From NCBI RefSeq assembly GCF_014298075.1, contig NZ_CP060418.1, positions 2,108,001 through 2,172,000 on the forward strand: a stretch of 64,000 nucleotides of DNA. Reading direction: 5' to 3'. The notes under the pieces are model-generated. The model ran no database searches, was not told where the DNA came from, and saw only the letters and a program-made list of their open reading frames with translations. A program made the position numbers and the translations under genes. Below are positions 3,702 to 53,852 of the stretch, in pieces; the stretch's first letter is position 1; every line of letters starts with the position of its first letter. The stretch is from Enterobacter sp. JUb54. GTDB taxonomy: Bacteria > Pseudomonadota > Gammaproteobacteria > Enterobacterales > Enterobacteriaceae.

Positions 3702-3854
3702 GTTTTATCAGGTCGGCAGGTCAATATAGGCTGCGGCTATCAATTTCCCAGACAGACGTAACATATTGATGCTATTGGCGAGAAAATTCTTAATGCTGCA
3801 CGGGGGTCTGACTGACTGCTGAGGAAGTAAGCGACGGGGCCGCCAACCCGAATC

Positions 3855-3879: not shown

Positions 3880-3972
3880 TATCGTTATGGTATCGCCTCA
3901 TCATCACGGCGCGGGATCGATCCGCGCCCTGTATTCACGCTGCGCCATCCCCTTAAACAGCGTCAGTATGGT

Positions 3973-4254: not shown

Positions 4255-4358
4255 GATATTTTCTCAATATACTGGTGATCGTTCGGGTATAAATACTCAC
4301 GTTAGATACACTGTCGGGATATCACATCCCTGTGCCATCATTCACGACTGTGTCGTTT

Positions 4359-21857: not shown

Positions 21858-24800
21858 ATGGACTTTTCCCGCTTTTTTATCGACAGGCCGATTTTTGCCG
21901 CGGTGCTGTCGATTTTGATTTTTATTACCGGGCTCATTGCGATTCCACTGCTGCCGGTCAGTGAATACCCTGACGTCGTGCCGCCCAGCGTGCAGGTGCG
22001 CGCCGAATACCCCGGCGCCAATCCGAAAGTGATCGCCGAAACCGTGGCGACGCCGCTGGAAGAAGCAATCAACGGCGTTGAAAACATGATGTACATGAAA
22101 TCCGTCGCCGGCTCCGATGGCGTGCTGGTCACCACCGTGACCTTCCGTCCGGGTACCGACCCTGACCAGGCGCAGGTTCAGGTGCAGAACCGGGTTTCGC
22201 AGGCCGAAGCGCGCCTGCCGGAAGACGTTCGTCGTCTGGGGATCACCACCCAGAAGCAGTCGCCGACGTTGACCCTGGTGGTCCATCTGTTCTCGCCAAA
22301 CGGCAAGTACGACTCGCTGTATATGCGCAACTACGCCACGCTGAAGGTGAAAGATGAGCTGGCGCGCCTGCCGGGCGTCGGGCAGATCCAGATTTTCGGC
22401 TCCGGCGAATACGCCATGCGCGTGTGGTTAGATCCCAATAAAGTAGCGGCGCGCGGGCTGACCGCCTCGGACGTGGTCACCGCGATGCAGGAACAAAACG
22501 TTCAGGTATCCGCCGGGCAACTGGGCGCCGAACCGCTGCCGAAAGAGAGCGATTTCCTGATCTCGATTAACGCCCAGGGCCGTCTGCATACCGAAGAAGA
22601 GTTCGGCAACATTATTCTTAAAACGGCCCAGGACGGTTCGCTGGTGCGTCTGCGCGATGTCGCGCGCATCGAAATGGGATCGGGCAGCTACGCCCTGCGC
22701 TCCCAGCTGAATAATAAAGACGCGGTCGGGATCGGTATCTTCCAGTCGCCGGGGGCCAACGCCATCGACTTATCTAATGCGGTACGCGCCAAAATGGACG
22801 AGCTGTCCACGCGCTTCCCGGAAGATATGAAATGGGCCGCCCCGTATGACCCTACGGTATTTGTCCGCGACTCGATTCGCGCGGTGGTGCAAACCCTGCT
22901 CGAAGCGGTGGTGCTGGTGGTGCTGGTAGTTATCCTGTTCCTGCAGACCTGGCGCGCCTCGATCATCCCGCTGATTGCGGTACCGGTGTCGGTGGTCGGG
23001 ACGTTCAGCGTGCTCTATCTGCTTGGCTTCTCGCTGAATACCCTGAGCCTGTTTGGCCTGGTCCTCGCCATTGGGATCGTGGTGGACGATGCGATTGTGG
23101 TGGTGGAAAACGTCGAGCGTAATATCGAAGAGGGGCTGGCCCCGCTGCAGGCGGCGCACCAGGCGATGCGTGAAGTCTCCGGGCCGATTATCGCTATCGC
23201 GCTGGTGCTGTGCGCGGTGTTCGTGCCGATGGCGTTTCTCTCCGGCGTTACCGGGCAGTTCTATAAGCAGTTTGCGGTGACCATCGCCATTTCGACGGTG
23301 ATCTCCGCCATTAACTCGCTGACGCTCTCCCCGGCGCTGGCCGCCCTGCTGCTGAAACCGCACGGGGCGCCGAAGGACCTCCCTACCCGGCTGATCGACC
23401 GTCTGCTCGGCTGGCTGTTCCGCCCGTTCAACCGCTTCTTCCTGCGCAGTTCGCACGGCTACCAGGCGCTGGTGGGTAAAACTCTGGGACGTCGTGGCGC
23501 GGTGTTTGTCGTGTATGTGCTGCTGCTGTGCGCCGCCGGCGTGATGTTTAAAGCCGTCCCCGGCGGGTTTATTCCGACCCAGGATAAGCTCTACCTGATC
23601 GGCGGCGTCAAAATGCCGGAAGGCTCGTCGCTGTCGCGCACCGATGCGGTGATCCGCCAGATGAGCGAAATCGGGATGAATACCGAAGGCGTGGATTACG
23701 CGGTGGCGTTTCCCGGGCTGAACGCGCTGCAGTTCACCAACACCCCGAACACCGGCACGGTATTTTTTGGCCTGAAACCGTTCGATCAGCGCAAGCATAC
23801 GGCGGCGGAGATTAACGCCGAGATCAACGCCAAAATCGCGCAGATCCAGCAGGGCTTCGGCTTCTCGATCCTGCCGCCGCCGATTCTCGGGTTAGGCCAG
23901 GGGTCCGGCTACTCGCTGTATATTCAGGACCGCGGCGGATTAGGCTACGGCACCCTGCAAACGGCGGTAAATACTCTGTCCGGGGCGATCATGCAGACGC
24001 CGGGAATGCATTTCCCGATTTCGACCTATCAGGCCAACGTGCCGCAGCTGGAGGTGCAGGTCGATCGCGATAAGGCCAAAGCCCAGGGGGTGTCGCTGAC
24101 CGATCTGTTCGGCACGCTGCAAACCTATCTGGGATCGTCCTATGTGAACGACTTTAACCAGTTTGGCCGCACCTGGCGCGTGATGGCGCAGGCCGACGGG
24201 CCGTTCCGCGACAGCGTGGAGGATATTGCGAATCTGCGCACGCGCAATAGCCAGGGCGAAATGGTGCCGATTGGCAGTATGGTCAATATCAGCACCACCT
24301 ACGGGCCGGACCCGGTGATCCGTTATAACGGCTATCCGGCGGCGGACCTGATTGGCGATGCCGACCCTCGCGTGCTCTCATCAGCCCAGGCGATGACGCA
24401 GGTAGCCGAGATGTCGAAACAGCTGCTGCCAAACGGGATGAATATTGAATGGACCGACCTGAGTTTCCAGCAGGCGACCCAGGGGAATACCGCGCTGATT
24501 GTCTTCCCGGTGGCGGTACTGCTGGCCTTCCTGGTGCTGGCGGCGCTGTATGAGAGCTGGACCCTGCCGCTGGCGGTGATCCTCATCGTGCCGATGACCC
24601 TGCTCTCCGCCCTGTTTGGCGTGTGGCTAACCGGGGGCGATAATAACGTCTTCGTGCAGGTCGGGCTGGTGGTGTTGATGGGGCTGGCCTGTAAAAACGC
24701 GATTCTGATCGTTGAGTTTGCGCGTGAGCTGGAAATCCAGGGGAAAGGCATTATGGAGTCGGCGCTGGAGGCCTGTCGCCTGCGTTTGCGCCCGATTGTA

Positions 24801-25010
24801 ATGACCTCTATCGCCTTTATTGCCGGGACCATTCCGCTGATCCTCGGCCACGGCGCCGGAGCCGAAGTGCGCGGCGTGACCGGGATTACGGTGTTCTCCG
24901 GGATGCTTGGGGTCACGCTGTTTGGTCTGTTCCTGACCCCGGTGTTTTACGTCGCGCTGCGCAAGCTCGTCGCGCGTAGAAAACCAGAGGCCGGGATTTT
25001 GCCGGGTTAA
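21858..25010 (+). CDS. oqxB: RND multidrug efflux transporter OqxB
   Basis: 1050 residues, the full HAE1-family length. Starts MDFSRFFIDRPIFAAVLSIL. The proton-relay aspartates in TM4 are present (GIVVDDAIVVVENVER), and the second half repeats the fold (GLACKNAILIVEFARELE carries the TM10 Lys). It exports quinolones, chloramphenicol and olaquindox-type compounds in Klebsiella. It begins 23 bases after oqxA and ends before a strong terminator. No break or missing key residue seen. Confidence 0.96.
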   Translation: MDFSRFFIDRPIFAAVLSILIFITGLIAIPLLPVSEYPDVVPPSVQVRAEYPGANPKVIAETVATPLEEAINGVENMMYMKSVAGSDGVLVTTVTFRPGTDPDQAQVQVQNRVSQAEARLPEDVRRLGITTQKQSPTLTLVVHLFSPNGKYDSLYMRNYATLKVKDELARLPGVGQIQIFGSGEYAMRVWLDPNKVAARGLTASDVVTAMQEQNVQVSAGQLGAEPLPKESDFLISINAQGRLHTEEEFGNIILKTAQDGSLVRLRDVARIEMGSGSYALRSQLNNKDAVGIGIFQSPGANAIDLSNAVRAKMDELSTRFPEDMKWAAPYDPTVFVRDSIRAVVQTLLEAVVLVVLVVILFLQTWRASIIPLIAVPVSVVGTFSVLYLLGFSLNTLSLFGLVLAIGIVVDDAIVVVENVERNIEEGLAPLQAAHQAMREVSGPIIAIALVLCAVFVPMAFLSGVTGQFYKQFAVTIAISTVISAINSLTLSPALAALLLKPHGAPKDLPTRLIDRLLGWLFRPFNRFFLRSSHGYQALVGKTLGRRGAVFVVYVLLLCAAGVMFKAVPGGFIPTQDKLYLIGGVKMPEGSSLSRTDAVIRQMSEIGMNTEGVDYAVAFPGLNALQFTNTPNTGTVFFGLKPFDQRKHTAAEINAEINAKIAQIQQGFGFSILPPPILGLGQGSGYSLYIQDRGGLGYGTLQTAVNTLSGAIMQTPGMHFPISTYQANVPQLEVQVDRDKAKAQGVSLTDLFGTLQTYLGSSYVNDFNQFGRTWRVMAQADGPFRDSVEDIANLRTRNSQGEMVPIGSMVNISTTYGPDPVIRYNGYPAADLIGDADPRVLSSAQAMTQVAEMSKQLLPNGMNIEWTDLSFQQATQGNTALIVFPVAVLLAFLVLAALYESWTLPLAVILIVPMTLLSALFGVWLTGGDNNVFVQVGLVVLMGLACKNAILIVEFARELEIQGKGIMESALEACRLRLRPIVMTSIAFIAGTIPLILGHGAGAEVRGVTGITVFSGMLGVTLFGLFLTPVFYVALRKLVARRKPEAGILPG

Positions 25011-25024
25011 ATCCCGCAGGCAAT

Positions 25025-25065
25025 AAAAAACCGCCTTCAGGCATGTGCTGAAGGCGGTTTTTTTT
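25025..25065. terminator. Bidirectional terminator between oqxB and oqxR
   Basis: A perfect ten-base stem CCGCCTTCAG/CTGAAGGCGG (25031-25057) with a seven-base loop, flanked by A-run on the left and eight T on the right (25058-25065). It serves the convergent oqxB and oqxR. Confidence 0.92.
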
Positions 25066-25079
25066 ACGCTAAAGCCACG

Positions 25080-25559
25080 CTAGCGGGCTTTTTTATCGCG
25101 GGTATCCAGTTCAGGCACCGCGACGCATCCGCTGGTATCGCCCTTTTTGACTTTGGCCAGCGCGCTGGCCACGGTATGACGAGCCAGCACATCCAGCGAG
25201 GCCTGCTCTGCTTCATCGGCAATAGATTTGAAATACCAGCAGGCGTTAGCGCTCACCACGCAACGTGCCGGCACATCGGGCCGGGATGCCCACAGTTTTT
25301 TATCTTCGATAACCGAGATGTAGATATCACGCAGGGTGATGCTTTCTGCCGGGCGGCCAAGATGAATAGAACCGTTACGGCCCAGCGTGGAGACAATAAT
25401 TCCGTCACGGGTCAGCGGTACCATGAGTTTGCGGATTAAGCTCGGGTTGGCTTCCAGGCCGTAGGCCAGAATCGAACTCGTCGAACGTTCACCCATCTCC
25501 TCCGCCATCGCTACGCTAAGAACCATCTGCAAAGCTGTCGGGAAGCGGTAATCTAACAT
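25080..25559 (-). CDS. oqxR: OqxR, Rrf2-family repressor of oqxAB
   Basis: 159 residues from the ATG at 25559 (AGGAAG upstream). Rrf2 layout: DYRFPTALQMVLSVAMAEE start, winged helix with NPSLIRKLMVPLTRDGIIVSTLGRNGSIHLGR, then a C-terminal part with a few Cys (ARCVVSANACWYF). It ends KKGDTSGCVAVPEL. In Klebsiella, loss of OqxR derepresses oqxAB. Here the frame is intact, so the pump should be repressed at baseline. Confidence 0.93.
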   Translation of the reverse strand: MLDYRFPTALQMVLSVAMAEEMGERSTSSILAYGLEANPSLIRKLMVPLTRDGIIVSTLGRNGSIHLGRPAESITLRDIYISVIEDKKLWASRPDVPARCVVSANACWYFKSIADEAEQASLDVLARHTVASALAKVKKGDTSGCVAVPELDTRDKKAR

Positions 25560-25744
25560 GTTGTCTTCCTGGGTCGCGGTGAATCTTGTTCTTTTTGGCA
25601 CCGCAGAGGTGAATAATCAATAAGCAACAATATAACAAACATGGTCATTATTTTGAAGCTATCTACTGCGGGGATGCGGCGTAAAACAAGCTTTCCGTGC
25701 CATATTTGTGACCACTCAGGGTATTCCTTAGCCGCGGTGGCGCG

Positions 25745-26092: not shown

Positions 26093-26331
26093 GTTTTGCA
26101 TCCTTTCCTGTCTGTCACCGGCGATGAAATGAGCATCGCGGAATATCCATTGATGTTAACGCTTAAGAAAGTGCTTTTCACTGAAATAGCCAGTTGGTGG
26201 TCCATTTTAGCTAATTCCGCTGACGTTCTGTCTACTGTAAAGCCCTCTGCGGATGACTCTTCACCCTGAACGCCCACGATTGCCCTCCCCCGCGTTCATT
26301 CCAGACGGAATAGTTTCAGCAAACAATTAAG

Positions 26332-26388
26332 TTGACACGCTTATGCATGCGATCAAAACTAAACCGTACAGTTCACATAACAGTGAAC
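26332..26388 (+). promoter_or_regulatory. Promoter and operators of the pqi-like operon
   Basis: TTGACA at 26332-26337 is a perfect -35; the -10 is weak (AAAACT, 17 bases on). Overlapping and just after it is AACTAAACCGTACAGT (26357-26372), found with one change upstream of the TetR gene at 31386-31401. Next comes a perfect dyad GTTCAC-ATAACA-GTGAAC (26371-26388). Together they look like a repressor-controlled promoter. Confidence 0.6.
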
Positions 26389-26451
26389 ATCAGGGTGTCT
26401 ATTGCGGGCTTGCCGGTACGCGGCCCTTAACCACAACGAAAGGATCTGCAC

Positions 26452-27114
26452 ATGAAGACGTTAAGGCAAATCGGTGGGCTGGCGGCTATCGCTGTTCCGC
26501 TGCTGTTGGTGGGGTGTGCTGGAAAAGAACCGGTGCGTTACAGCGGTATCGATTCATCGTCAAAGCTGACCGCGAATACCGATGATAATGCCGATCGCAT
26601 GCCCTATCGTTATTCGCCTCTCGTCGACTGGCGCAAGTACGACAGCATTATTATTGACCCGGTAAAAATTTATCAGGGCCACGATGGGCAGTTTGATGAT
26701 ATGGCGCAGGCCGATCGCCAGCTGCTCGCCAACCACATGCAGGAACAGTTCAGCAAAGCATTAAGCCCTCGCTTTAAAGAGGTCTCCGCCCCTGCTGCCA
26801 ACACCCTACGGCTGAAGTTGACCCTGACGGGCGCGGACACCACGCCTCAGGTGGTGGGTACCTTTACTAAATTCGATCTGGCGGGCGGGCCTTACAACAT
26901 CGTGCAATCGATACGCGGAGGCCAGGGACTGATGAGCGGTTCGGTGGATTATGCCGTCGAAATTTATGACGCCAACAGCCACGATCTGTTGAAAGCGTAC
27001 GTCGCCCGGCAGTATCCGAATGCCATGAACGTCTCTGCCAGCATCGGCTCCCTGAGCGCCGCTGAAGTGGGTATTGAAAAAGGCGCAGAAGAGCTGGCGG
27101 AGTTGCTCAGGTAG
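26452..27114 (+). CDS. DUF3313 lipoprotein
   Basis: 220 residues with a lipobox (LLLVGCAGK) near residue 20. The mature part resembles DUF3313 lipoproteins: YRYSPLVDWRKYDSIIIDPVKIY, then LTLTGADTTPQVVGTF and a C-terminal VGIEKGAEELAELL. Function is not established. It begins the transcript that continues into pqiA-, pqiB- and pqiC-like genes, so it is probably an envelope component of the same system. AAAGGA lies eight bases before the ATG. Confidence 0.82.
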   Translation: MKTLRQIGGLAAIAVPLLLVGCAGKEPVRYSGIDSSSKLTANTDDNADRMPYRYSPLVDWRKYDSIIIDPVKIYQGHDGQFDDMAQADRQLLANHMQEQFSKALSPRFKEVSAPAANTLRLKLTLTGADTTPQVVGTFTKFDLAGGPYNIVQSIRGGQGLMSGSVDYAVEIYDANSHDLLKAYVARQYPNAMNVSASIGSLSAAEVGIEKGAEELAELLR

Positions 27115-27201
27115 CCTCCCAGACAACACATGCAGCCGGAAACGCTCAGGCAAAACCGGCTGTCATTTTCCCTATCAGTTATCTCCTGGCGACCCGGTGC
27201 T

Positions 27202-27828
27202 ATGAAGATATTCCCGCATCTGACTATCTGCCCGCATTGCGATAGTGTCTACCAGACATTGCCCTGCATGTCGGGCGAAATTGCCCTCTGCCAGCGTTGT
27301 CACGCCGTGCTATGGCGTGGTCACCGGCGTGTGCCTGGCCATCTGCTGCCGCTGATGATAACAGCGGCCGTGGCTTTAGCGATCGCCGCGCTTTTTCCGG
27401 TGCTCTCGGTTGGGTTTCACGGGATGGTGAACGATGCCACGTTGTGGAATGTGGCCTGGGCACTGACTGCCGGCGACAGTTCTCCCGCGATGGCTATCGG
27501 TAGCGTTTTTCTGCTGCTGATCGCGCCCTTCTTACAGGTCATGCTAATGGCATGGCTGCTGAGCTTTGCCCATTTCGCCCGTCCGGCACCGGCGTTTATC
27601 GGCACCATGCGGGTGCTCAAATGGCTGCATCCCTGGAGCATGGTGGAAGTTGGCATGCTGGGATTTCTGATTGCCGGGATCAAGCTGTCGTCACTGCTGG
27701 ATGTCTCCATAGGCCCTGGCGGTTGGGCGCTGGCCCTCTCCTGCGTGCTGGTGGTCTTCATCAACAGTCACGATCTGCATCCGCTGTGGGATCTGCTGTC
27801 GTACGAGGAGCAAAACCATGACCAATAA
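27202..27828 (+). CDS. PqiA-like membrane protein, first half
   Basis: 208 residues from the ATG at 27202; an earlier in-frame ATG at 27130 is possible but neither has a strong ribosome-binding site. It opens with a zinc ribbon (CPHCD ... CQRCH) and has four membrane helices, corresponding to one PqiA repeat. E. coli PqiA and YebS carry two such repeats in one chain of over 400 residues. Here the second repeat is the next gene, overlapping by 11 bases. PqiA-type proteins sit in the inner membrane with MCE partners and support lipid transport. Confidence 0.82.
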   Translation: MKIFPHLTICPHCDSVYQTLPCMSGEIALCQRCHAVLWRGHRRVPGHLLPLMITAAVALAIAALFPVLSVGFHGMVNDATLWNVAWALTAGDSSPAMAIGSVFLLLIAPFLQVMLMAWLLSFAHFARPAPAFIGTMRVLKWLHPWSMVEVGMLGFLIAGIKLSSLLDVSIGPGGWALALSCVLVVFINSHDLHPLWDLLSYEEQNHDQ

Positions 27829-28441
27829 GGCCCCTTTTGCCCGCCAGATGCTACTGTGTCGCTGCATGCTCTGCGGGCTGGTGTGTGCTGACGACACGGC
27901 GTCCGGCGATGACCGGAAATGTCCGCGCTGTCAGACGACGCTGCCCCACCGCCAGCCTGGACGCCGACATCTCAGCTGGGCGCTGCTGTTAACCTCTGTG
28001 ATCCTGTATCTGCCCGCCAATATTTTGCCGGTGATGTACACCACGCTGCTCGGCCATGGCAGCGAAAGCACCATCCTTTCCGGCATTGTGGCCTTCTGGC
28101 ACAGCGGCTCATGGGGCATCGCGGCGATCATCTTTATTGCCAGCGTCATGGTGCCGTGTCTGAAATTTTTGTCATTGGGTGTCCTGCTGATCTCCGCGTC
28201 CCGCCAGAGTTATTGGGCCAGACGCGAACGGACCCGGCTGTACCGGCTGACCGAGTGGATTGGTTGCTGGTCAATGCTGGATGTGGTTGTCGTTGCCGTG
28301 GTGTGTTGCCTGCTGCGGTTTCGTCCGCTGAGTGAAGCCGAACCTCGTATCGGGATCCTGTTTTTCGCCCTGGTGGTCGTCCTGACCATGCTGTGTGCGC
28401 TGAGTGTTGAACCAAAAACGCTATGGGAAGACAAGCAATGA
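27818..28441 (+). CDS. PqiA-like membrane protein, second half
   Basis: 207 residues: a second zinc-ribbon-like stretch (CRCMLCGLVC ... KCPRCQ) and four helices with the family's LPANILPVMYTTLLG signature and MVPCLKFLSLGVLLIS. It matches one PqiA domain and starts inside the previous gene, so the pair is made together. Its stop overlaps the pqiB-like start (ATGA). Both halves look intact, which argues for a genuine two-gene form and against a frameshift. Confidence 0.85.
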   Translation: MTNKAPFARQMLLCRCMLCGLVCADDTASGDDRKCPRCQTTLPHRQPGRRHLSWALLLTSVILYLPANILPVMYTTLLGHGSESTILSGIVAFWHSGSWGIAAIIFIASVMVPCLKFLSLGVLLISASRQSYWARRERTRLYRLTEWIGCWSMLDVVVVAVVCCLLRFRPLSEAEPRIGILFFALVVVLTMLCALSVEPKTLWEDKQ

Positions 28442-30072
28442 AGCGTCCTGTTTCGGGTACCCCTCTTTTTTATTACGGGCGCTGGCGCAATGCCCTGATC
28501 TGGTTGCTCCCCGTTATTGCGTTTGTTGTCGCGATGTCGATGGTTATCCAAGCGCGCTTAACCATCGGCCCTGAAGTTGTGATTGCCTTTCGTAGCGCCG
28601 CCGGCCTCGAAGCCGGTAAAACCGCGGTGAAATATAAAGATGTCACCGTCGGCATCGTTAAGGAGATAACCCTCAGCCCCGATAACAGCCAGGTGCTGGT
28701 GCGGGTCACTCTTGCCCGAAACGCGCAGAATCTGGCGCGCGCCGACACCCGATTCTGGGTGGTGAGGCCACGGGTCGGAATAAGCGGCGTGAGCGGCATT
28801 GATACCCTGTTGTCAGGGGCTTACATCGGCGCGGACCGGGGGAAATCCGAGGAGAACAGATACCGGTTCACCGGTATGGAAACGCCGCCGGCTATCGTCA
28901 ACGACATGGCCGGCAGCCAGTTTATGCTGGAAGCCGACGACCTTGGCTCGCTGGATATTAACGCGCCGGTTTACTATCGCCGCATTCCGGTCGGGCGGAT
29001 AACCTCTTACCAACTGCGTAAAGACGGCAAAGGGATCGATCTCAACGTCTTTATTGATGCCCCCTATGACCGCCTGGTCACCGCCGATTCGCGATTCTGG
29101 AATGCCAGCGGCGTGGATCTGTCGGTCGGCAGCGATGGTTTTCAGCTTAAAACCCAGACCGTTGCCGCCATTATGGCCGGGGGCATCGCCTTCTCCAGCC
29201 CGGAGAACCCCACCCAGGGCGTGATCCACAAGCAAACCCGTTACAAACTGGCAGCGGATGAAGAAACCGCGATGGCGCCTGCGGACGGGCCGCCGGTGCG
29301 TTTTCAGCTGCGTTTTGAACACACCTTGCATGGCCTGAACGTGGGCGCCCCGGTTGAGTTTTCCAGCGTGCGGATTGGACGTGTCGCCTCCGTTGAGCTC
29401 GACTTTAACCCCGAGGGATACCGCTTTCCGACCATCGTGGATATTGAGGTCTATCCCTCGCGGATGGGCCACGTGCTCGAAAAACTCCCCAAACCGACGG
29501 GCGACACCGACCTCAATACGGTCATTTTCACCCGCGAAATGATCGCGCATGGACTGCGGGCGCAGGCCACCTCCAGCAGCCTGCTGACGGGGCAACTTTA
29601 TATCTCACTTGATTTCATACCGGATGCGCCGAAAGTGAAATTTGACGCAACAAAGCGCCCGGTTGAACTGCCGACCGTCAATGGCGGGCTGACCATCCTG
29701 CAGGATCAGCTCACCGATATCGCCAGAAAAATCAACAAAATGCCTCTGGATCAAATCGGAAATAACATGAACAACACGCTGCTAGAACTGAATAAAACGT
29801 TGCGCATGGTAAACAGCCAGTCTCTGCCAGCCGCCAACCACCTGATGCAACAAACGCAGCGAACGACGCAAGACGTGCACAACCTGCTGGCGGAAGATTC
29901 ACCCCTGATGATTAACCTGTTGCAGTCTTTACAGGAAACCACCCGAACGCTACGGGCGGTGCGTGGCCTGACAAACCAGCTGGACCGCCGCCCGGAGTCG
30001 TTATTGCAAGGCCGCGCGGCAGACGCGTCGCTGGACGAACCCCGTTCACGTAAAGCAGGAGAGCAGCCATGA
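28438..30072 (+). CDS. PqiB-like MCE protein (intermembrane transport tunnel subunit)
   Basis: 544 residues from the ATG at 28438. One N-terminal membrane helix (IWLLPVIAFVVAMSMVI), then three MCE domains at about 40-130, 155-230 and 280-390, seen from repeated GLEAGKTAVKYKDVTVGIV, SLDINAPVYYRRIPVGRI and GLNVGAPVEFSSVRIGRV motifs, then a long helical C-terminus that would form the periplasmic tunnel. This is the PqiB arrangement. It overlaps the gene before it and is overlapped by the lipoprotein gene after it. Confidence 0.92.
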   Translation: MKRPVSGTPLFYYGRWRNALIWLLPVIAFVVAMSMVIQARLTIGPEVVIAFRSAAGLEAGKTAVKYKDVTVGIVKEITLSPDNSQVLVRVTLARNAQNLARADTRFWVVRPRVGISGVSGIDTLLSGAYIGADRGKSEENRYRFTGMETPPAIVNDMAGSQFMLEADDLGSLDINAPVYYRRIPVGRITSYQLRKDGKGIDLNVFIDAPYDRLVTADSRFWNASGVDLSVGSDGFQLKTQTVAAIMAGGIAFSSPENPTQGVIHKQTRYKLAADEETAMAPADGPPVRFQLRFEHTLHGLNVGAPVEFSSVRIGRVASVELDFNPEGYRFPTIVDIEVYPSRMGHVLEKLPKPTGDTDLNTVIFTREMIAHGLRAQATSSSLLTGQLYISLDFIPDAPKVKFDATKRPVELPTVNGGLTILQDQLTDIARKINKMPLDQIGNNMNNTLLELNKTLRMVNSQSLPAANHLMQQTQRTTQDVHNLLAEDSPLMINLLQSLQETTRTLRAVRGLTNQLDRRPESLLQGRAADASLDEPRSRKAGEQP

Positions 30073-30674
30073 GAACGGTTTTGTGTCTGGTGATCGGCAT
30101 CATCTGCACGCTGGCTGGCTGCTCATCTCCCCAGGTGCGTTACCACACCCTGGTCAGCCCTGATCCCGTTTCCCGGGTCGTCGACCCGCCAGGGTTTGTG
30201 ATGGCGCTGCTGCCCGTCGGGGTTCCGGCCCAGCTGGATAGCCAACAAGTGGTGGTCCGCCAGAGCGACAGTCGCATGGTGGTTCTGGACAACGATCGCT
30301 GGTTAAGTCCGTTGGGCGATGAGCTACAGACGGCGCTGTCCCTCGCGATGACGCAGCAACTCAACACCGAGGATGTGGCAGGGCTCGCGCGCGATGACAG
30401 CAAACCAGTGGTGCGGGTGCTGTTGCAGATTCGCCGTTTTGACAGCTGGCCCGGCAATGCCGTCAGTCTGGATGCTGACTGGAGCTTATCGACATCGCAA
30501 GGAAATGAGAATCGCCGGCTGGTGTGCCGAAGCCACCTTTCGCAAAGCGTCTCCGGCGATCCGGCACAGATGTTTGCCGCCTGGCAAGACGTGGTTGAGC
30601 GCCTGGCAACCCAGACCGCAGAGACCGCAGCCCAGTGGATGGCAACCGGCAGCGCCGCGTGTCGCCGGGGCTAG
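30069..30674 (+). CDS. PqiC-like outer-membrane lipoprotein
   Basis: 201 residues with a lipobox (CTLAGCSS) near residue 18 and YHTLVSP just after, as in PqiC and other ABC-type auxiliary lipoproteins (DUF330). Toward the end LVCRSHLSQSVSGD and a helical tail are typical. In E. coli PqiC caps the PqiB tunnel at the outer membrane. Overlaps pqiB by four bases; last gene of the operon. Confidence 0.88.
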   Translation: MRTVLCLVIGIICTLAGCSSPQVRYHTLVSPDPVSRVVDPPGFVMALLPVGVPAQLDSQQVVVRQSDSRMVVLDNDRWLSPLGDELQTALSLAMTQQLNTEDVAGLARDDSKPVVRVLLQIRRFDSWPGNAVSLDADWSLSTSQGNENRRLVCRSHLSQSVSGDPAQMFAAWQDVVERLATQTAETAAQWMATGSAACRRG

Positions 30675-30722
30675 CGGGCGTAAACCGGGTTCGCGGCCGC
30701 GAATCCGGTCGGCATATGCCGG

Positions 30723-31346
30723 TCACGCCGGCTTTTTAACGGCGCCATCAAGAAACATCCTCACGCCATTCATGACCATATCATTGACTTTTTCCTGCGT
30801 GAAATCAGGCATCTGACGCATGAAAAACAGGATCTCGCTTTCCGCTTTGATCAGTGAAGTAAACTGGATGGCGCGCAGCATCGGGTCCGATGGCGCCAGT
30901 TCACCACGTTCCATTGCCGCTTTCATTTCCTGAGCCAGCGCCTCCATGCTTTGGCGGATGCCGGATTCCAGAAACAGCTGACCGATATCGGAATGCGCGG
31001 CTTCGCCCAGCACGACGCGATAGATTTGCAGGGCCTGATTATCGCACGTCACTACCCGCAGCATATCCTGACCAAAGCGGATGAGTTTCTGTTCCAGAGA
31101 TAAGTGCTGGTTTTCCGGTTGAGCGAGCCCGTTTGCCGCTTCGGTAAGAAAGCGGGCGCTACAGTTGCGCACGACCGTTTCAAACAGCGCCTCTTTTGAA
31201 GCGAAGTATTTATAGAGCGTGGCCTTGGAGCCACCGGCACGTCTGGCTACTTCATCCATGGAAGCGCGTTCGTAGCCTATCTCCATAAACACCTCCGCGG
31301 CGGCGGCCACGATCCCCTGGCGGCGCGCTTGCGTCAGTACCTTCAT
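30723..31346 (-). CDS. TetR-family repressor next to the pqi-like operon
   Basis: 207 residues. The N-terminal helix-turn-helix (IVAAAAEVFMEIGYERASMDEVARRAGGSKATLYKYFASKEALFE) is typical TetR/AcrR; the C-terminal ligand domain holds FFMRQMPDFTQEKVNDMVMNGVRMFLDG. It is convergent with the operon. A 16-base sequence upstream of its own start recurs, with one mismatch, at the operon promoter, so it probably represses both. The ligand is unknown. Confidence 0.88.
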   Translation of the reverse strand: MKVLTQARRQGIVAAAAEVFMEIGYERASMDEVARRAGGSKATLYKYFASKEALFETVVRNCSARFLTEAANGLAQPENQHLSLEQKLIRFGQDMLRVVTCDNQALQIYRVVLGEAAHSDIGQLFLESGIRQSMEALAQEMKAAMERGELAPSDPMLRAIQFTSLIKAESEILFFMRQMPDFTQEKVNDMVMNGVRMFLDGAVKKPA

Positions 31347-31385
31347 GTTGAACCCTTAGCTGGTTTTAAAGCGATGCTTAAACAT

Positions 31386-31401
31386 AACTACACCGTACAG
31401 T
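31386..31401. promoter_or_regulatory. Predicted TetR operator, autoregulatory copy
   Basis: AACTACACCGTACAGT matches the element at 26357-26372 at 15 of 16 positions. It is 40 bases upstream of the TetR start codon. Its core ACCGTACAGT is a near-palindrome around GTAC. A weaker relative, ACCGTACTCT, occurs at 31666-31675. Confidence 0.6.
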
Positions 31402-31830
31402 ATGGGTTTATTATGCCATGCCGGGGCGTTAAATGCCCCGTTCGGGAGCCCGGAGTGTGACCTGTGGACAGGCAATGATGTATCTGGATGTGAATCGGAT
31501 CCAGGTGGATTTTCTGCCAGAAGCATGTAGGTACTGATGAGAAAGAATTATTGCTCCACCCGCGCATGCTTACCCCCTTTTTCCTTTCGGGTGAAACTAC
31601 GCTATTCCATGTGGAAATCTCAGAGTCTGTTTTTATCACTATAAAAATGAATATCTACATAGCGCACCGTACTCTTCAAACCCATCACAATACGATTTGG
31701 TTATTTTATATATTTAAATGACATATCTGACTGCTATCAACAAATAACGAATAACTGTTCATATCAACATTTCCTTTAAACGCTTAAATTTCAACTTCAA
31801 ATAAGAAATTTCGCCCCAGGAATAAATAAT
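31402..31830. other. Intergenic region upstream of the orphan sulfite reductase gene
   Basis: About 430 bases with no convincing coding frame. It becomes strongly AT-rich from about 31640, as is the gene that follows. The promoter of that gene must lie here; no clear CysB site could be singled out by eye. Confidence 0.45.
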
Positions 31831-33525
31831 ATGAGCAATGATAAATTATCAGATAATGAGCGTCTAAAATCGAAAAGTCAGTTACTAAGAGGAACATTAA
31901 CCGAAGATTTATCCAATGATATCACCGGTGGATTTATTGGCGATAATTTTCAATTAATCCGTTTCCATGGCATGTATCAGCAGGACGATCGGGATATCCG
32001 TTCAGAACGTGTTGCGCAGATGCTTGAACCTCTGCATACCGTGATGTTGCGAGTCCGCCTTCCTGGGGGGATTATTACGCCGCAGCAGTGGTCCGGGATC
32101 GATGATTTTGCCTCAAAACACACGCAATATGGCAGCATTCGAATTACCAACAGGCAGGCTTTGCAGCTTCACGGTGTATTGAAAAAAAACATCAAACCCG
32201 TGCACAAACTGCTCCATCATTTAGGTCTCGATTCCCGAGCAACTGCTGGTGATGTCAACCGCAACGTACTGTGTACCTCGAATCCGGTAGAGTCCGCTAT
32301 TCATATTCAAGCATATGAGTGGGCAAAGAAAATATCTGAACACCTGTTACCGAAAACCAATGCCTATGCCGAAGTTTGGCTTGATGGCGAAAAAGTGAAA
32401 CACCCGGAAGAAGAAACAATACTTGGTAATAGTTACCTGCCGAGAAAATTCAAAACGGCCGTTGTCATTCCCCCACAAAATGATGTTGATCTGCATGCCA
32501 ATGATCTGAACTTTATCGCAATTGGTGCCGACGGTGAATTGCAAGGATTTAATGTCCTGGTCGGTGGTGGCCTGGCCATGACGCATGGCGACAAAAGCAC
32601 CTACCCTCGCCTTGCAAGTGAGTTAGGGTTTATACCGCTGGAAAAGACATTATCTGTTGCAGAGGCGATCGTCTCTACTCAACGTGATTGGGGTGACAGG
32701 AAAAATCGTCGCAATGCCAAAACAAAATATACGCTCGACCGGGTCGGTGTAGATGTATTCAAAACAGAAGTAGAACGACGAGTCGGATTTACGTTTCAGA
32801 CAATAAGGCCATACCAGTTCACCGAGCGTGGCGATCGAATTGGTTGGGTAAATGGGACGGATAATAAATTCCATCTGACACTTTTTGTGCCCAGCGGACG
32901 ATTGATCGACACGCCGGAAAAGCCGTTAAAATCAGGCCTCGCCGCTATTGCACAGATTCATGACGGCGATTTCAGACTCACGCCCAATCAAAATATTATC
33001 ATTGCCGGAGTATCCGCAGAGGATAAAGAGAAAATAGATGCGCTCGCACGCCAGTACGGATTAATTGATAATAACATTTCGCTACAACGCAAACAGTCTA
33101 TGGCCTGCGTCTCATATCCGACCTGTCCGTTGGCAATGGCTGAAGCTGAGCGTGTCTTGCCAGGCATGATTGATAAGCTCGATGCAATCCTGCTACACAA
33201 TCAACTGTCTTCAGAATCCATAATATTCAGGGTAACCGGATGTCCAAATGGCTGCGGCAGAGCCATGCTTGCAGAAATAGGGTTGGTGGGAAGAGCCCTG
33301 GACCGCTATGACGTGTACATCGGTGGCAATCGCGAAGGAACGAGAATCCCCCGGCTTTATCTCGAAAATGAACAAACAGAAAGTATCATTGCAGAGCTGG
33401 AATCATTGATTACCCTATGGGCGAACAATCGTGAAGGTCATGAAGCATTTGGTGACTTCATCATTCGCCAGGGTATTATTAAGCCCGTGGTTAATTCAAC
33501 CATTGACTTTTACCGTCAGGATTAA
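31831..33525 (+). CDS. Sulfite reductase (NADPH) hemoprotein beta subunit, orphan CysI homologue
   Basis: 564 residues, near E. coli CysI (570). The siroheme/4Fe-4S cysteines are all present: CVSYPTC (C-x5-C) and TGCPNGC (C-x3-C). Substrate-site basic motifs remain ([31 protein letters not shown]). It should reduce sulfite to sulfide by six electrons if given a reductase. There is no cysJ or cysH beside it, and its codon use is clearly more AT-rich than flanking genes, suggesting acquisition. A housekeeping cysJIH presumably lies elsewhere. Symbol left blank because it is probably a paralogue. Confidence 0.88.
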
Positions 33526-33578: not shown

Positions 33579-33684
33579 TCAATGGGGCAGGCGAAAAAAT
33601 ATTATTTTCCCGACAATATTTCCGCGCCTCATTCGTCTACCTCAGCAGAAGCTATTTTTAGTGATTCACTGAGGAGTGAAAGCC

Positions 33685-34170
33685 ATGAGAGATTTTGATA
33701 TGCGTAGACAGGGTTGGGGACACGGTCGCGGGTTTGGCGGGCGCAGTATGGCGAAGCCGATCGTGATTGGCGTGGTGCTGGTGGTGGCGCTGGGGTTACT
33801 GGTGATGTCCCTGTGGAACGCGGTGCTTCCCGCCCTGATTGGCGTAAAGAGTATTGGTTTCTGGCAGGCGCTGGGTCTGCTGGTGCTGTGCCGGATCTTA
33901 TTTGGCGGACTGGGCATGCGCCCGGGAATGTTTGGCGCCCGTCGGCGGATGCATGAACGCTGGATGCAGATGACCCCGGAACAGCGCGAGCAGTTTATGC
34001 AGCATCGTCGCGCTGGCGGCTGTCATCATGAGCACCGCTGGCACGGCTTCGCCCGTCATCGCGACGGAGAGTGGCCACGGGACGGCCAGCGCGAGTCTCA
34101 GGACGCTAAAACCACTGCCCAGCCGCAGTCGGACGAGACAAATCCGCAGAAACCCGCGGGTACCGAGTAA
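33685..34170 (+). CDS. His-rich membrane protein paired with an ECF sigma factor
   Basis: 161 residues from the ATG at 33685 (GAGGAG eight bases upstream; GTG at 33676 is less likely). The basic Gly/Arg N-terminus is followed by two membrane helices (about 25-47 and 55-72), then a cytoplasmic tail with WMQMTPEQREQFMQHRR, like the LTxxQ-type motif of Spy/CpxP metal-stress proteins, and a Cys/His cluster GGCHHEHRWHGFARH. It ends in a polar low-complexity tail. Five bases separate it from the sigma gene, so it may act as anti-sigma or sensor. No known anti-sigma domain is seen. Confidence 0.65.
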   Translation: MRDFDMRRQGWGHGRGFGGRSMAKPIVIGVVLVVALGLLVMSLWNAVLPALIGVKSIGFWQALGLLVLCRILFGGLGMRPGMFGARRRMHERWMQMTPEQREQFMQHRRAGGCHHEHRWHGFARHRDGEWPRDGQRESQDAKTTAQPQSDETNPQKPAGTE

Positions 34171-34175: not shown

Positions 34176-34739
34176 ATGAGCGCTGAAAAAGCGAAAGACT
34201 CCCCGCTGGTCTCGGCCCTTGTAGCCTGCAGAGTTAAGTTATCGGCATTTATTCGCGGCCGCACGGCGGTGCGCGATGATGCGGACGATATCCTGCAGGA
34301 GGTCACGTATCAGCTGATGAAAGTGGAACAGCCGGTGGAGAACGTCGCCGCCTGGCTGTTCCGCGCCGCGCGCAATGAGATGACCGACCGGTCGCGGAAA
34401 AAACGTGAACTCCCGCTGTCGACCTGGTTTACCGATGGCGAAGACGATGAGTCGTTTCCCGAAGACGAACTGGCGGAGACCCTGTTTGGGGTCCCACAGT
34501 CGCCGGAAGAGGCCCGGCTGAGCGAAATGATTTGGGCAGAACTGGATCAGGCGCTGTCGGAACTGCCCGCAGCCCAACGCGAGGTGTTCGAGAAAACCGA
34601 GCTTGAAGGCTACAGCTTTAAAGCGCTGGCGGAGGAAACCGGCGTCAGCGTTCAGGCGCTGCTGTCGCGTAAACACAAGGCCGTGCTCTACCTGCGCACT
34701 CGCCTGCGTACGCTTTATGATGAGCTCATTGGGGAGTAA
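34176..34739 (+). CDS. ECF-type RNA polymerase sigma factor
   Basis: 187 residues. Region 2 (RDDADDILQEVTYQLMK, then AWLFRAARNEMTDRSRKK) and region 4 (LSELPAAQREVFEKTELEGYSFKALAEETGVSVQALLSRKHKAVLYLR) are clear, with no regions 1 or 3, as in extracytoplasmic-function sigma factors. It is not RpoE or FecI by sequence. It follows a His-rich membrane protein, probably in one operon. The stimulus may be metal or envelope stress, which is inference. A terminator was not seen before the convergent gene at 34766. Confidence 0.88.
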   Translation: MSAEKAKDSPLVSALVACRVKLSAFIRGRTAVRDDADDILQEVTYQLMKVEQPVENVAAWLFRAARNEMTDRSRKKRELPLSTWFTDGEDDESFPEDELAETLFGVPQSPEEARLSEMIWAELDQALSELPAAQREVFEKTELEGYSFKALAEETGVSVQALLSRKHKAVLYLRTRLRTLYDELIGE

Positions 34740-41396: not shown

Positions 41397-41732
41397 CTAT
41401 AATCTGCTACACAGGAAGGATTATTCACGCAGAACAACTCTGTATTATTCCTGGGTGCGATATATTACAGCGACAGAATAATTATAATTAAAGCGCAATT
41501 TTTATTTGAATTAATAAGGCATGCAAGCGATTTAAATCCACAAATTAAAGATGGATTAATCCGCATCATGAAATATTTTCAGGTTGCAGGTGACAAATTT
41601 AAGTTTTCCTCAGACATTTCTTCGATATAACATTGTTGATATAGCTTATATATTTTTTGTATTTGAGGTTGAGTGGCGATTATTGTCATGCTACTGCTCC
41701 GCTGCCTCCTCCATCACAGGACCATAATAAGA

Positions 41733-42713
41733 ATGTCGCAGAAAATGAAATTATTGCCCATCGCGCTGGGTCTGCTCTCGCTCGCCTCCGTAAACGCCCT
41801 GGCGGCAGAGGCCTTATCACTTCAGGGAAAAACCATCGGCGTCGCCGTTGTCGGCACCCAGCACTTCTGGGATCGTGAAGCCTATAAAGGCGCCACCGAA
41901 GAAGTCGAGAAACTGGGTGGCAAAGTGATCGGCGTCGACGGCGGCCGTGATAACCAGGTTCATGCCAACAACCACGATATTTTACTGTCGCGTAAAGTCG
42001 ATGCGGTAATTAGCATTCTGGGCGATAGCGCCGTTGAGCCAAAATTCAAAGCGCTGCGCGATGCGGGCATTCCGGTATTTACCGTTGACCATGTATCAAA
42101 ATACTCCGTCAATAACACCACCTCCGATAACTACACCCTTGGGTCAACCATTGGTCGTTATATGGCCGATGAGTTAGGCGGCAAAGGTAACGTTGCGGTA
42201 TTTAACGCATTCTCCAGTTCCCTGCGTATTTGCGGCATTCGTTACGACCAGTGGAAATATGTCCTTAAGGATTACCCGGACATTCATATTATTCAGCCAG
42301 AGCTGGCGGAACAATTTGCCAACTCGCCGGAAGATGCGCGTAAGAAAACCCTCGAACTGCTGAGCCAGTACCCGAAAGGTAAACTCGACGCCATCCACGT
42401 TGCCTGCTGGGATCAGCCGGCTATCGGTATCGTCCAGGCGCTGGAAGAGACCGGGCGCGATAAAGACGTTAAGGTCACCGCCATTGATGCCGGCCCGGAA
42501 ACGCTGGAAATCATGGCCGAACCGGGCAGCCCGTTCGTTGCCAACGTCGCCCAGCAGCCGCATCTGATTGGCCAGACCTCCGCCGATAACGTCGCCCGCT
42601 ACTTCGACAAACAGAAGCTGCCGGTGCAGACCTTTATTCCGGTGGTTCCGGTGAAAGGTCCGCAGGAGGCGAAAGCGGTCTACAAACAGCTGGGATATGG
42701 CGAACTGCAGTGA
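41733..42713 (+). CDS. Sugar ABC transporter periplasmic binding protein (ribose type)
   Basis: 326 residues from the ATG at 41733, which gives a signal peptide (LPIALGLLSLASVNALA|AEAL). Type I periplasmic binding fold: KTIGVAVVGTQHFWDREAYKGA, then DAVISILGDSAVEPKFKALRDAGIPVFTVDH, and DVKVTAIDAGPETLEIM. It resembles RbsB/XylF-like proteins. It captures the sugar used by the cluster, which is unknown. First gene of a five-gene run with overlapping or adjacent stops and starts. Confidence 0.9.
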   Translation: MSQKMKLLPIALGLLSLASVNALAAEALSLQGKTIGVAVVGTQHFWDREAYKGATEEVEKLGGKVIGVDGGRDNQVHANNHDILLSRKVDAVISILGDSAVEPKFKALRDAGIPVFTVDHVSKYSVNNTTSDNYTLGSTIGRYMADELGGKGNVAVFNAFSSSLRICGIRYDQWKYVLKDYPDIHIIQPELAEQFANSPEDARKKTLELLSQYPKGKLDAIHVACWDQPAIGIVQALEETGRDKDVKVTAIDAGPETLEIMAEPGSPFVANVAQQPHLIGQTSADNVARYFDKQKLPVQTFIPVVPVKGPQEAKAVYKQLGYGELQ

Positions 42714-44263
42714 TAACTCAATCCTCCGGCGGGGTCCATCCCGCCGCTGGTCTGGCGATGAACCAGATCAGCAAAACCTTTGCCAACGTGACTGCATTAA
42801 ATGCGGTCACGCTGCTTCTGAACCCCGGTGAAATTCACGGCCTGATCGGCGAGAACGGCGCGGGAAAATCCACGCTCATAAAGATCCTCGCCGGTGTGTA
42901 CCAGGCCGATAGCGGCAACGCCACCCTCGACGGCGCGCCTCTGCCGCTCGGCAATCCTGCGGCGATCGAAGCCCTGGGCATCCGCGTGATTCACCAGGAG
43001 CTGAACCTGATCCCGCACTTTACCGTCGCGGAATCGGTGTTTCTGGGTCAGGAGTACCGCACCCGCTGGGGCGCGCTGGACCGGCGGCGCATGAATGCCG
43101 CCACCGCCGCGTTTTTCCGCGACAGCTGGCAGCTGGACATCAACCCACGTCGCCTGATCCGCGACCTCAGCCTCGCCGAACGCAAGCTGGTGCAGATAGC
43201 CCGGGCATTGATCGATGGCGCCGCAAAGCTGGTGGTGTTCGATGAGCCCACCGCCCCGCTGGAAGCGCAGGAGGCCAGCCTGGTCTCCTCGGCGATCCTG
43301 CGTCTGCGGGAACAGGGGATCGCGATTCTCTATATTTCTCACTATCTCAACGAAATCGCTGCCCTGTGCGATCGCGGCACGGTGCTGCGCAACGGCGAGG
43401 TCGTCGGTTACCCTGACCGGGAGCTGCTGCAAAATACCGACGCACTGATAAAAATGATGGTCGGTCGCGATATTGAGCAGCTGTATACCCCGCGCCAGAG
43501 CAGCGCTCAGGAAGTCGATGCTGCTGCCCCGGTGCTCTCCGTGCGCCACCTTAGCGACGGCCAGCAATTAAACGATATTACCTTTGATATTCAGCCAGGC
43601 GAGATTGTCGGCGTCGCCGGGCTGCTGGGCGCAGGGCGCGACGTGCTGGTCGATCTCCTTTACGGACTGCGCCGCCCCCGCAACGGCACAATCAGCATCG
43701 ACGGCCAGCTGAAACGGCTGCGCACGCCGTATCAGGCCACCCGCGCCGGGCTGGCGCTGGTCCCGCGCGACCGCCGCCATCAGGGGCTGATCCTCCCCTT
43801 CTCCACCGCCGATAATATTAATCTTGCCTCGCTGCCGGACACCGCCACCTTCGGCTGGGAACGTCGCGGCCGAGCGCTGGAAAAAGCGCGCAGCTGGATT
43901 GACCAGCTCTCCATCCGCCCAGGCCGCCCGGAACTGCCGGTGCGCTTGATGAGCGGCGGCAACCAGCAAAAGGCGATTCTCGCCCGCTGGCTGGGCACCG
44001 ACGCGCGGCTGTTCATTCTCGATGAACCCACCCTCGGGGTGGATATCGGCGCGCGTAGCGATATTTATCAGCGCACCCGCGAGCTGGCGGACCGCGGTCG
44101 CGGCGTGCTGGTCTCTTCCAGCGACGCACCAGAATTATTGGGCCTGTGCGACCGCATCCTGGTGATGTGGCGCGGCGAGCTGGTAGCCAATCTCCCGACC
44201 CAGGGACTAACGCTGGACGCGTTACTGGTGACGATTAACGGTGGACAGGAACAACAGGTATGA
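42710..44263 (+). CDS. Sugar ABC transporter ATPase, double nucleotide-binding domain
   Basis: 517 residues. Two ABC domains: the first with GENGAGKST, LSLAERKLVQIARAL and VVFDEPTAPLE; the second with degenerate Walker A GLLGAGRDVL, MSGGNQQKAILARWL and FILDEPTLGVD. This is the RbsA/MglA/AraG type. The GTG start at 42710 overlaps the previous stop (GTGA); an ATG at 42758 is the alternative. It energises the two permeases that follow. Confidence 0.92.
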   Translation: MITQSSGGVHPAAGLAMNQISKTFANVTALNAVTLLLNPGEIHGLIGENGAGKSTLIKILAGVYQADSGNATLDGAPLPLGNPAAIEALGIRVIHQELNLIPHFTVAESVFLGQEYRTRWGALDRRRMNAATAAFFRDSWQLDINPRRLIRDLSLAERKLVQIARALIDGAAKLVVFDEPTAPLEAQEASLVSSAILRLREQGIAILYISHYLNEIAALCDRGTVLRNGEVVGYPDRELLQNTDALIKMMVGRDIEQLYTPRQSSAQEVDAAAPVLSVRHLSDGQQLNDITFDIQPGEIVGVAGLLGAGRDVLVDLLYGLRRPRNGTISIDGQLKRLRTPYQATRAGLALVPRDRRHQGLILPFSTADNINLASLPDTATFGWERRGRALEKARSWIDQLSIRPGRPELPVRLMSGGNQQKAILARWLGTDARLFILDEPTLGVDIGARSDIYQRTRELADRGRGVLVSSSDAPELLGLCDRILVMWRGELVANLPTQGLTLDALLVTINGGQEQQV

Positions 44264-45246
44264 GTGCAGGCATCCAGCGTCGCCCCCTTCCGGGCCTCAC
44301 GACGCTTATCGAAAAATTCCCCCTGATTCTCTTTTTTGCGCTGCTGGTGTGGCTCAGCCTCCAGTCGCCCTTCTTTTTAAGCTGGCAGAATATCAGCATG
44401 ATGCTGGTGCAGAGCGTGCCGCTGGCGATCCTCTGCTTCGGTCTGGTGTGCGTGATAGCCGTCGGCGGCGATGATGTGGTTTCCGGCGGGATTGACCTGT
44501 CGCTGCCCGCCATTGCGGTGCTTGGCGTGGCGCTGCTGAGCCTCGGCATGGCGGAGTGGAACACCCCTTACCTGCTGCTGTTGTTACTGCTGATTGCCGT
44601 CAGTCTGGCCTGCGGCGCGGTCAACGCCACGCTGGTGCTGGTGGCGGGTCTGCCGCCGCTGCTGGCGACCCTGTCGACCTCGGTGGCCTTCACCGGGCTG
44701 ACCGACCTGCTGACCGGCCAGCGACGTATCGCGGTCAATGACCCGCTGATGGTGGCCTTTCGCGATAACGACCTGTTCGGCATCCCGTGGCCGCTGATCT
44801 ATCTGCTGGCGGTCTTCGCGCTGTTCCAGTTTCTGCTGCATCACTCCCGCTTCGGCCAGCATTTACAGGCGGTTGGCGGCAACCGCGATATGGCGCAGAT
44901 GAGCGGACTCAACGTGCGCCGTTTGACCATTATTGTCTGGCTGCTGGCGGGGATCGCCGCCGGACTGGCGATCATGCCGCTGCTCAGCCAGGGCTCCGGC
45001 AGCTCCAGCGGCACGGCGACGCCATTGCTGCTGGAAACCGTCCTCGCCACCTTTATCGGCGCGGCGTTCTCGCGCCGTCGGGTGGTCACCATCTGGGGCG
45101 CGCTGCTCGGTGCGGTGCTGGTCAACGCCCTCTCCAACGGGCTGGGTCTGCTGGGGGTGAATATTTTCTGGATGGGGGCTATCAAAGGCGGCCTGATCCT
45201 CGTGGTGCTGGCGGCGTCGGCGGTCAGACATAAAGGAGGCAACTGA
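44260..45246 (+). CDS. Sugar ABC transporter permease, subunit 1
   Basis: 328 residues, eight to ten membrane helices, with the RbsC-family sequences VVSGGIDLSLPAIAVLGVAL near residue 77 and GGNRDMAQMSGLNVRRLTIIVWLLAG near 205. It overlaps the ATPase stop by four bases and its own stop overlaps the next permease start. The two distinct permeases probably form a heterodimer. Confidence 0.92.
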   Translation: MSAGIQRRPLPGLTTLIEKFPLILFFALLVWLSLQSPFFLSWQNISMMLVQSVPLAILCFGLVCVIAVGGDDVVSGGIDLSLPAIAVLGVALLSLGMAEWNTPYLLLLLLLIAVSLACGAVNATLVLVAGLPPLLATLSTSVAFTGLTDLLTGQRRIAVNDPLMVAFRDNDLFGIPWPLIYLLAVFALFQFLLHHSRFGQHLQAVGGNRDMAQMSGLNVRRLTIIVWLLAGIAAGLAIMPLLSQGSGSSSGTATPLLLETVLATFIGAAFSRRRVVTIWGALLGAVLVNALSNGLGLLGVNIFWMGAIKGGLILVVLAASAVRHKGGN

Positions 45247-46247: not shown

Positions 46248-46258
46248 GTGGAGCACGT

Positions 46259-53850: not shown

Positions 53851-53852
53851 CC

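Follow-up and report, generated by a model that had tools for sequence, protein, structure and literature searches.

A horizontally transferred Pqi-type MCE operon with split PqiA, a DUF3313 lipoprotein and a predicted TetR operator in Enterobacter sp. JUb54

We studied a 64,000-nucleotide stretch of the Enterobacter sp. JUb54 genome (contig NZ_CP060418.1, positions 2,108,001 to 2,172,000), hereafter called the window. It contains a single run of five genes, encoding a DUF3313 lipoprotein, two half-length PqiA proteins (PqiA1 and PqiA2), a PqiB-like protein and a PqiC-like lipoprotein, to which a tetR gene is convergent (Table 1). This layout had been proposed in an initial annotation made from the sequence alone, and open reading frame (ORF) and Pfam analysis of the window agreed with it. 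Three MCE domains in one protein, two PqiA domains encoded upstream and a DUF330/ABC_trans_aux lipoprotein identify a Pqi-type (type III) MCE operon, in which the two PqiA domains sit in two genes rather than one. The pqiA1 and pqiA2 genes overlap by 11 bases (27818-27828) in different frames, as the initial annotation had stated. An ATGA overlap joins pqiB to pqiC (30069-30072), and a possible pqiB start at 28438 would create another one with the stop codon of pqiA2. Because the gaps between the genes are short, a single transcript is suggested. The mechanical ORF start of pqiA1 is at 27130; the protein of close relatives has 208 amino acids, and the start is therefore probably at 27202. In both the DUF3313 protein and PqiC, the residue next to the lipobox cysteine is not aspartate, and this cysteine of PqiC is invariant in 10/10 aligned sequences. 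Under the +2 rule for lipoproteins, a non-aspartate residue after the lipobox cysteine leads to the outer membrane. The rule thus points to an outer-membrane location for both proteins.

Table 1. Coordinates of the cassette, its genes and its regulatory elements in the window
Feature	Position	Strand	Basis
Whole cassette, block common to relatives, with unrelated flanks	26292-31437		DNA homology with relatives
-35 box TTGACA of the operon promoter	26332-26337	+	Kept in 4/4 loci compared (window, L083, L151, L082)
Operator 1 (predicted), core ACTAAACCGTACAGT at 26358-26372, covering the place expected for the operon -10/+1 region	26354-26381	+	Position weight matrix, 34.6 bits, window excluded from training
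DUF3313 lipoprotein, operon type, lipobox Cys22	26452-27114	+	Pfam PF11769, E 2.3e-54; G21 and C22 invariant in 9/9 aligned
PqiA1, N-terminal half of PqiA/LetA; zinc-ribbon cysteines C10, C13, C30, C33	27202-27828	+	PF04403, solved-structure match, tree
PqiA2, C-terminal half of PqiA/LetA; zinc-ribbon cysteines C16, C19, C35, C38	27818-28441	+	PF04403, solved-structure match, tree
PqiB-like, three MCE domains	28423-30072 (alternative start 28438)	+	Three MlaD matches (Pfam), solved PqiB/LetB match
PqiC-like lipoprotein, ABC_trans_aux, Cys18	30069-30674	+	PF03886, E 1.8e-33
TetR repressor (predicted), AefR/NalC-like, TetR_N and TetR_C_7	30723-31346	-	Pfam; solved-structure match
Operator 2 (predicted), core ACTACACCGTACAGT at 31387-31401, over the tetR start region	31383-31410	+	Position weight matrix, 28.0 bits, window excluded from training
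Extended -10 like element TGGCATAAT of the putative tetR promoter	31410-31418	-	Kept in 4/4 loci compared

The initial annotation had noticed one motif at the operon promoter and upstream of tetR and had taken it for a shared operator. The motif indeed occurs without mismatch at 26357-26372 and at 31386-31401, and its 15-base core has two exact matches in the 5.30-Mb genome, both at the window operon. With up to three mismatches, three matches were found in the window as compared to 0.21 expected. We also scored the window with a matrix made from 28 unique sites of relatives (among 31, some of them common to divergent genes). The two operators obtained the top two scores (Table 1), the next non-overlapping place reaching 9.1 bits. 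A chance motif was rejected on the basis of the two exact sites in the genome, the excess over expectation in the window and the matrix ranking. A genome-wide regulon was likewise rejected, since exact sites are only local and the 10 matches with up to two mismatches (local two included) are fewer than the 22 given by a reversed control.

The operator is conserved in relatives. With up to three mismatches, it was detected in 18 of 19 DUF3313 promoters and in 13 of 16 tetR promoters, the latter including L087, which is without DUF3313, and two tetR-like genes of L084. With corrected ORF starts in two loci, the counts became 19/19 and 14/16: L162 has a site with one mismatch at 2739 when the annotated DUF3313 start is used, and L155 has an exact site at 4872, common to DUF3313 and tetR, when the aligned tetR start is used. 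In a control, 14 of 400 random 380-base pieces of the same loci carried a match at this threshold, and this number counts the operon promoters themselves as well. Matches on opposite strands lie 5 bases apart in several loci, which defines a dyad with its centre between GT and AC. A conserved dyad operator is thus found at both the regulator's own promoter and the target promoter, as for autoregulated TetR proteins. In the window, the TTGACA box lies 20 bases 5′ of operator 1, and the -10 like element adjoins operator 2 on the tetR strand. Because the operator follows a conserved -35 box and covers the tetR start region, repression and autoregulation are likely, and the layout is likely that of a steric, self-limiting repressor. 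Overall, the motif constitutes a conserved operator that goes with tetR and to which TetR is predicted to bind, and the operon is probably kept silent by the repressor encoded next to it.

Several observations weigh against this interpretation. The -10 region of the operon promoter is poor: a consensus promoter scan missed the TTGACA box, and no good -10 follows it. Five of the 19 relatives with a DUF3313 operator (L170, L172, L180, L181 and L186) were found via the motif, which makes their contribution circular; in the 14 relatives found by protein, the operator was present in 13 initially and in all 14 with the corrected start. The tetR promoters of L172 and L230 are without the site, and in the Rahnella loci L088 and L164 and in L227 an operator-like site is kept while tetR was not found in the DNA examined. 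Finally, matches with at most one mismatch occur in 56 of 246 family genomes. Seven of 19 regions around motif matches in other genomes held operon-type DUF3313 and one (L182) held only tetR-like genes, so that many of these matches are chance occurrences.

Some related loci show further variations. Two loci, L163 (3337-3825) and L084 (4095-4769), each carry an additional, divergent TetR-like gene whose operator is also that of DUF3313. In the L084 protein TetR_C_7 was detected and TetR_N was not, and the L163 frame is short; these genes may correspond to a decaying or DNA-binding-poor paralog. In L162, a Klebsiella michiganensis plasmid, an IS481 transposase gene (3561-4601) lies between DUF3313 and the pqi genes. 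The operators before DUF3313 and tetR are retained there, and position 8541, in the interval separating pqiC from the end of tetR, has an extra exact site. L172 carries an exact operator (7921-7935) between DUF3313 and the 3′ end of the tetR-like gene, not at the tetR promoter.

Both PqiA halves are homologous to LetA. The N half of the solved LetA structure (9n8w) matches PqiA1 residues 9-198 (E 1.9e-17) and its C half matches PqiA2 residues 30-204 (E 1.1e-34), LetA being the only PqiA-domain structure matched by both proteins. Together with the zinc-ribbon cysteines, which are predicted to bind zinc, this assigns the pair to the LetA/PqiA transporter family. The 11-base overlap, and the match of one gene to the N half and of the other to the C half of a single protein, would also fit a broken pqiA, that is, a frameshifted pseudogene or a sequencing error in one two-domain gene. 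The related loci (best 80 of 84 from a genome scan) argue otherwise. Both half genes are present in 78 of the 80 and are in the same frame in 0/78, the exceptions being L145, with one 410-aa gene, and L102, cut by a contig end. The half genes are therefore not one error-broken frame, and the initial annotation was right to count two genes. Moreover, in each half the four zinc-ribbon cysteines are retained without exception (27/27 sequences), and a GAGGAG ribosome-site-like stretch precedes the ATG of pqiA2. A broken pqiA was rejected on this evidence and appears to us extremely improbable. The split is the normal state of PqiA in this lineage and is not peculiar to the window locus.

A phylogeny of the halves had been suggested in the initial annotation. 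In a tree of 76 half sequences, PqiA2 clusters with PqiA and LetA C halves (support 100/99); PqiA1 falls among the N halves, with deep branches supported at only 51/74. Among the C halves, those of the fused PqiA and LetA proteins are not monophyletic: PqiA groups with split Colwellia genes (99/93), where the tree tool warns of long branches meeting, and LetA groups with split beta-proteobacterial and Acinetobacter genes (91/95). Fusion or fission may have taken place more than once, the Colwellia-PqiA join being subject to the long-branch warning.

The same genome, assembled as one contig, encodes two further systems of this kind. A fused PqiA frame of 425 codons is located with its PqiB at 2.19 Mb, and LetB together with a fused LetA of 427 codons at 0.67 Mb, all as open frames; one single-MCE protein, presumably MlaD, is also present. 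Since fused pqiABC and letAB (yebST) exist elsewhere in the genome, a point that the initial annotation had asked to be checked, the window operon is a third system and a separate one, the latter as that annotation had supposed. Window PqiB shows 33% identity to the other PqiB of this genome and 36% to the start of LetB. It matches solved PqiB (5uvn) and LetB, and window PqiC matches 8q2c (E 4.2e-5). In the PqiB tree, the window lineage lies apart from PqiB and LetB, on a branch with beta-proteobacterial and Acinetobacter proteins. Scores stayed below the NCBIfam equivalog cut-offs for PqiB (385.8 of 525 bits) and PqiC (37.1 of 200 bits), as did those of the two halves for PqiA (63.6 and 179.9 of 562 bits), a cut-off that a half-length protein can hardly reach. 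Judged by sequence, window PqiB and PqiC are related to E. coli PqiABC, not orthologs.

The cassette behaves as a unit. DNA homology spans 26292-31437 with one same-genus relative, 26292-31440 with another and 26305-31420 with Serratia marcescens; no matches outside the cassette bounds were found in the relatives' DNA compared. Window-type PqiB occurs in 3 of 20 genus genomes, one of the three being partial. Kin operons are carried by plasmids of Klebsiella michiganensis, K. pneumoniae (a conjugative IncFIB/IncHI1B record) and Rahnella. In the PqiB tree, Serratia marcescens adjoins the window group and the K. pneumoniae plasmid protein stands beside Erwinia, at odds with the species. Insertion-site repeats or a tRNA were looked for at the cassette ends and not found, and megablast, the one search used, gave no near DNA match to the operon in E. 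coli genomes. The operon has been horizontally transferred as one block between unrelated sites in enterobacteria. A point against the explanation proposed below is that the operon is dispensable: in L151/L168 and L170 it is decayed, parts of pqiB and pqiC being lost or disrupted.

Taken together, these results make it quite probable that the window encodes a transferred third Pqi-type, envelope-spanning MCE complex, repressed by TetR and released by a ligand. This proposal builds on the gene content, the homology of the halves, the conservation and position of the operator, the two other systems and the mobility of the cassette; it predicts repression, autoregulation, a ligand, complex assembly and a lipid cargo. 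PqiA1 and PqiA2 together would form a two-domain inner-membrane transporter of the LetA/PqiA type, PqiB a periplasmic MCE conduit and PqiC an outer-membrane ring, while DUF3313 would add a second outer-membrane lipoprotein. TetR would recognise a dyad of 20 bp (in idealised form ACTAAACCGTACGGTTTAGT) at two places, directly after the -35 box of the operon and across the start region of tetR. Both promoters would thereby be blocked until a small amphiphile or lipid-like ligand releases TetR. Among solved proteins, NalC and AefR are the closest named ones to the window TetR, two unnamed TetR entries scoring higher. Chlorinated phenols (PMC6018408) and flavonoids (PMC11915855) are described as ligands of NalC and AefR. 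Operator sequences of these two regulators, for comparison with that of the window, were not found in the accessible text of PMC11915855, PMC6018408 and PMC6821364. By analogy, the window operon may be induced by a ligand, and an aromatic or amphiphilic molecule is our guess for it. Since the operon has a defined operator and probably its own switch, a simple reporter should suffice to screen for the inducer, whose identity may in turn hint at the cargo. The split pump lets the two PqiA domains be tested apart. These features bear on the broader question of how MCE complexes are switched and what cargo they carry. The plasmid-borne relatives, including the conjugative K. pneumoniae record, add to the interest of the operon.

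The cargo might also be something other than a membrane lipid, the operon then acting in tolerance or in an efflux-like way against amphiphilic toxicants such as detergents, phenolics and redox dyes, which would induce it via the AefR/NalC-like TetR. The kinship of TetR and the reported ligands cited above would agree with this, as would the accessory nature of the operon. Likewise, the available text on Acidovorax avenae reports that loss of tetR raised tolerance to paraquat and H2O2 (PMC4204640), and that on E. coli reports that lauryl sulfobetaine inhibits pqiAB mutants (PMC5561183). The latter source, however, also reports phospholipid binding for E. coli MCE proteins, and we consider a toxicant cargo possible but the less probable case.

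Another alternative concerns the target of TetR and depends on the distribution of DUF3313. Proteins of this family were found in 60 of 149 family genomes, at 69 places, part of which were examined. The window genome has a second DUF3313 gene at 1.544 Mb, matched in 5362 of 5426 E. coli genomes (ydcL). When a model derived from operon-type proteins was applied, the operon type scored 305-438 bits and the others (YdcL-like) 22-42 bits. The operator, with up to three mismatches, was present in 0/38 other-type genes (L225 and L232 among them). The 20 operon-type loci comprise 14 with open pqi genes (L155 without a PqiC match), two more with a decayed set, and four (L172, L180, L181 and L231) where pqi genes were not found in the DNA examined. 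The operator is kept in all four, and a tetR-like gene lies nearby in the first three, not in L231. From these pqi-less loci it could be argued that TetR mainly controls DUF3313, the pqi genes being passengers behind its promoter in some lineages. Three of the four (L172, L180 and L181) were nevertheless found through the motif, pqi genes are open or decayed in the other 16 loci, and the short gaps in the window suggest one transcript. We therefore think it quite unlikely that DUF3313 is the main target and retain the regulated MCE complex as the preferred explanation.

What DUF3313 contributes to such a complex can be approached through structure prediction. No convincing solved sequence relative was found, the best match having an E value of 0.46. 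A first, low-confidence model (predicted local distance difference test, pLDDT, 57.6) gave Z scores of 10.3 with HpaA, 9.6 with TraT and 8.2-8.6 with the PqiC entries 8q2c and 6osx, and it also resembles PelC and LptE. A second model (pLDDT 56.7) has its main strands and helices in the same order. In an hhalign comparison of DUF3313 with PqiC, the match was confined to the signal and lipobox region. This fold group includes ring-forming outer-membrane lipoproteins. Because Z scores of such size can reflect a common arrangement, the likeness to the PqiC, PelC, TraT and HpaA folds is a lead only. A long invariant loop (about residues 136-165) is poorly modelled. A more elaborate proposal, which we find unlikely as a whole, would make DUF3313 another ring-forming lipoprotein of the outer membrane, of the same type as PqiC, PelC and TraT, and the TetR-controlled outer gate of the mobile third MCE conduit; TetR and DUF3313 would be a free-standing regulated module that captured pqi cassettes, and the invariant loop would be the membrane-inserting or conduit-contacting part. 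In the accessible text of PMC5698278, PMC3997438 and PMC11460718, DUF3313 is mentioned only in tables.

E. coli PqiABC resembles the window operon in having two PqiA domains, a three-MCE PqiB and a PqiC lipoprotein in the same order, but its PqiA is fused in one gene. The E. coli pqiABC operon is not known to include DUF3313 or TetR genes. The contrast that the initial annotation drew with E. coli stands for the fused PqiA and, as regards DUF3313, for the operon; it does not extend to the whole genome, as E. coli has YdcL elsewhere. YdcL shares its Pfam family with window DUF3313 and falls into the other subfamily, with its lower scores and operator-free promoters. LetAB (YebST) similarly combines a two-PqiA-domain membrane partner with an MCE tunnel, and differs in its fused LetA and in a LetB with seven MCE domains (PMC12436622); it is not known to include lipoproteins. 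A 2017 survey states that two PqiA domains are encoded upstream of most MCE genes of types III and IV (PMC5561183).

The closest described system is that of Acidovorax avenae RS-1 (Liu et al. 2014; PMC4204640). As far as the available text of this paper goes, TetR represses the split pqiAA'B there and shifted intergenic promoter-region DNA in a gel shift, and tetR loss increased expression of the pqi genes 6- to 8-fold. Like the window, RS-1 has a split pqiA, pqiB and an adjacent repressing TetR, and its authors think that the genes were horizontally acquired. Compared by description only, it differs in that tetR lies upstream in tandem and four genes are involved; the same text leaves DUF3313, pqiC and any lipoprotein unmentioned, and an operator sequence was not found in it. 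The tandem order also occurs in Herminiimonas L122 and L125, the L122 regulator having TetR_C_7 like the window TetR. The split and the TetR, which the initial annotation regarded as distinguishing, are thus both present but do not set the locus apart, in view of the split in the related loci and of the repressed pqiAA'B published in 2014. A literature search that covered few subscription papers gave no account of an enterobacterial DUF3313-pqi operon with a defined operator. Split PqiA and TetR control are already known in outline; the DUF3313 lipoprotein and the mapped operator are newer.

The remainder of the window contains other gene groups. Directly left of the cassette (21858-25601) are an OqxB multidrug pump gene, above the NCBIfam cut-off, and a gene for an Rrf2-type regulator; oqxB-like DNA is also found in sister genomes without the operon. 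On the other side, a gene for a CysI sulfite reductase hemoprotein lies beside the operon (31831-33525), another cysI-like match being located at 5.095 Mb (66% DNA identity). A sigma-70 family gene with regions 2 and 4 (34176-34739) comes after a small GTG-start frame (33676-34170) that has no Pfam match. Further along, a sugar-type ABC transporter (binding protein, ATPase and two permeases) is followed by a pfkB kinase gene (41673-47200), and a purine/cytosine-type permease, a PucR-type regulator and an amidohydrolase are encoded in one run at 52588-56323.

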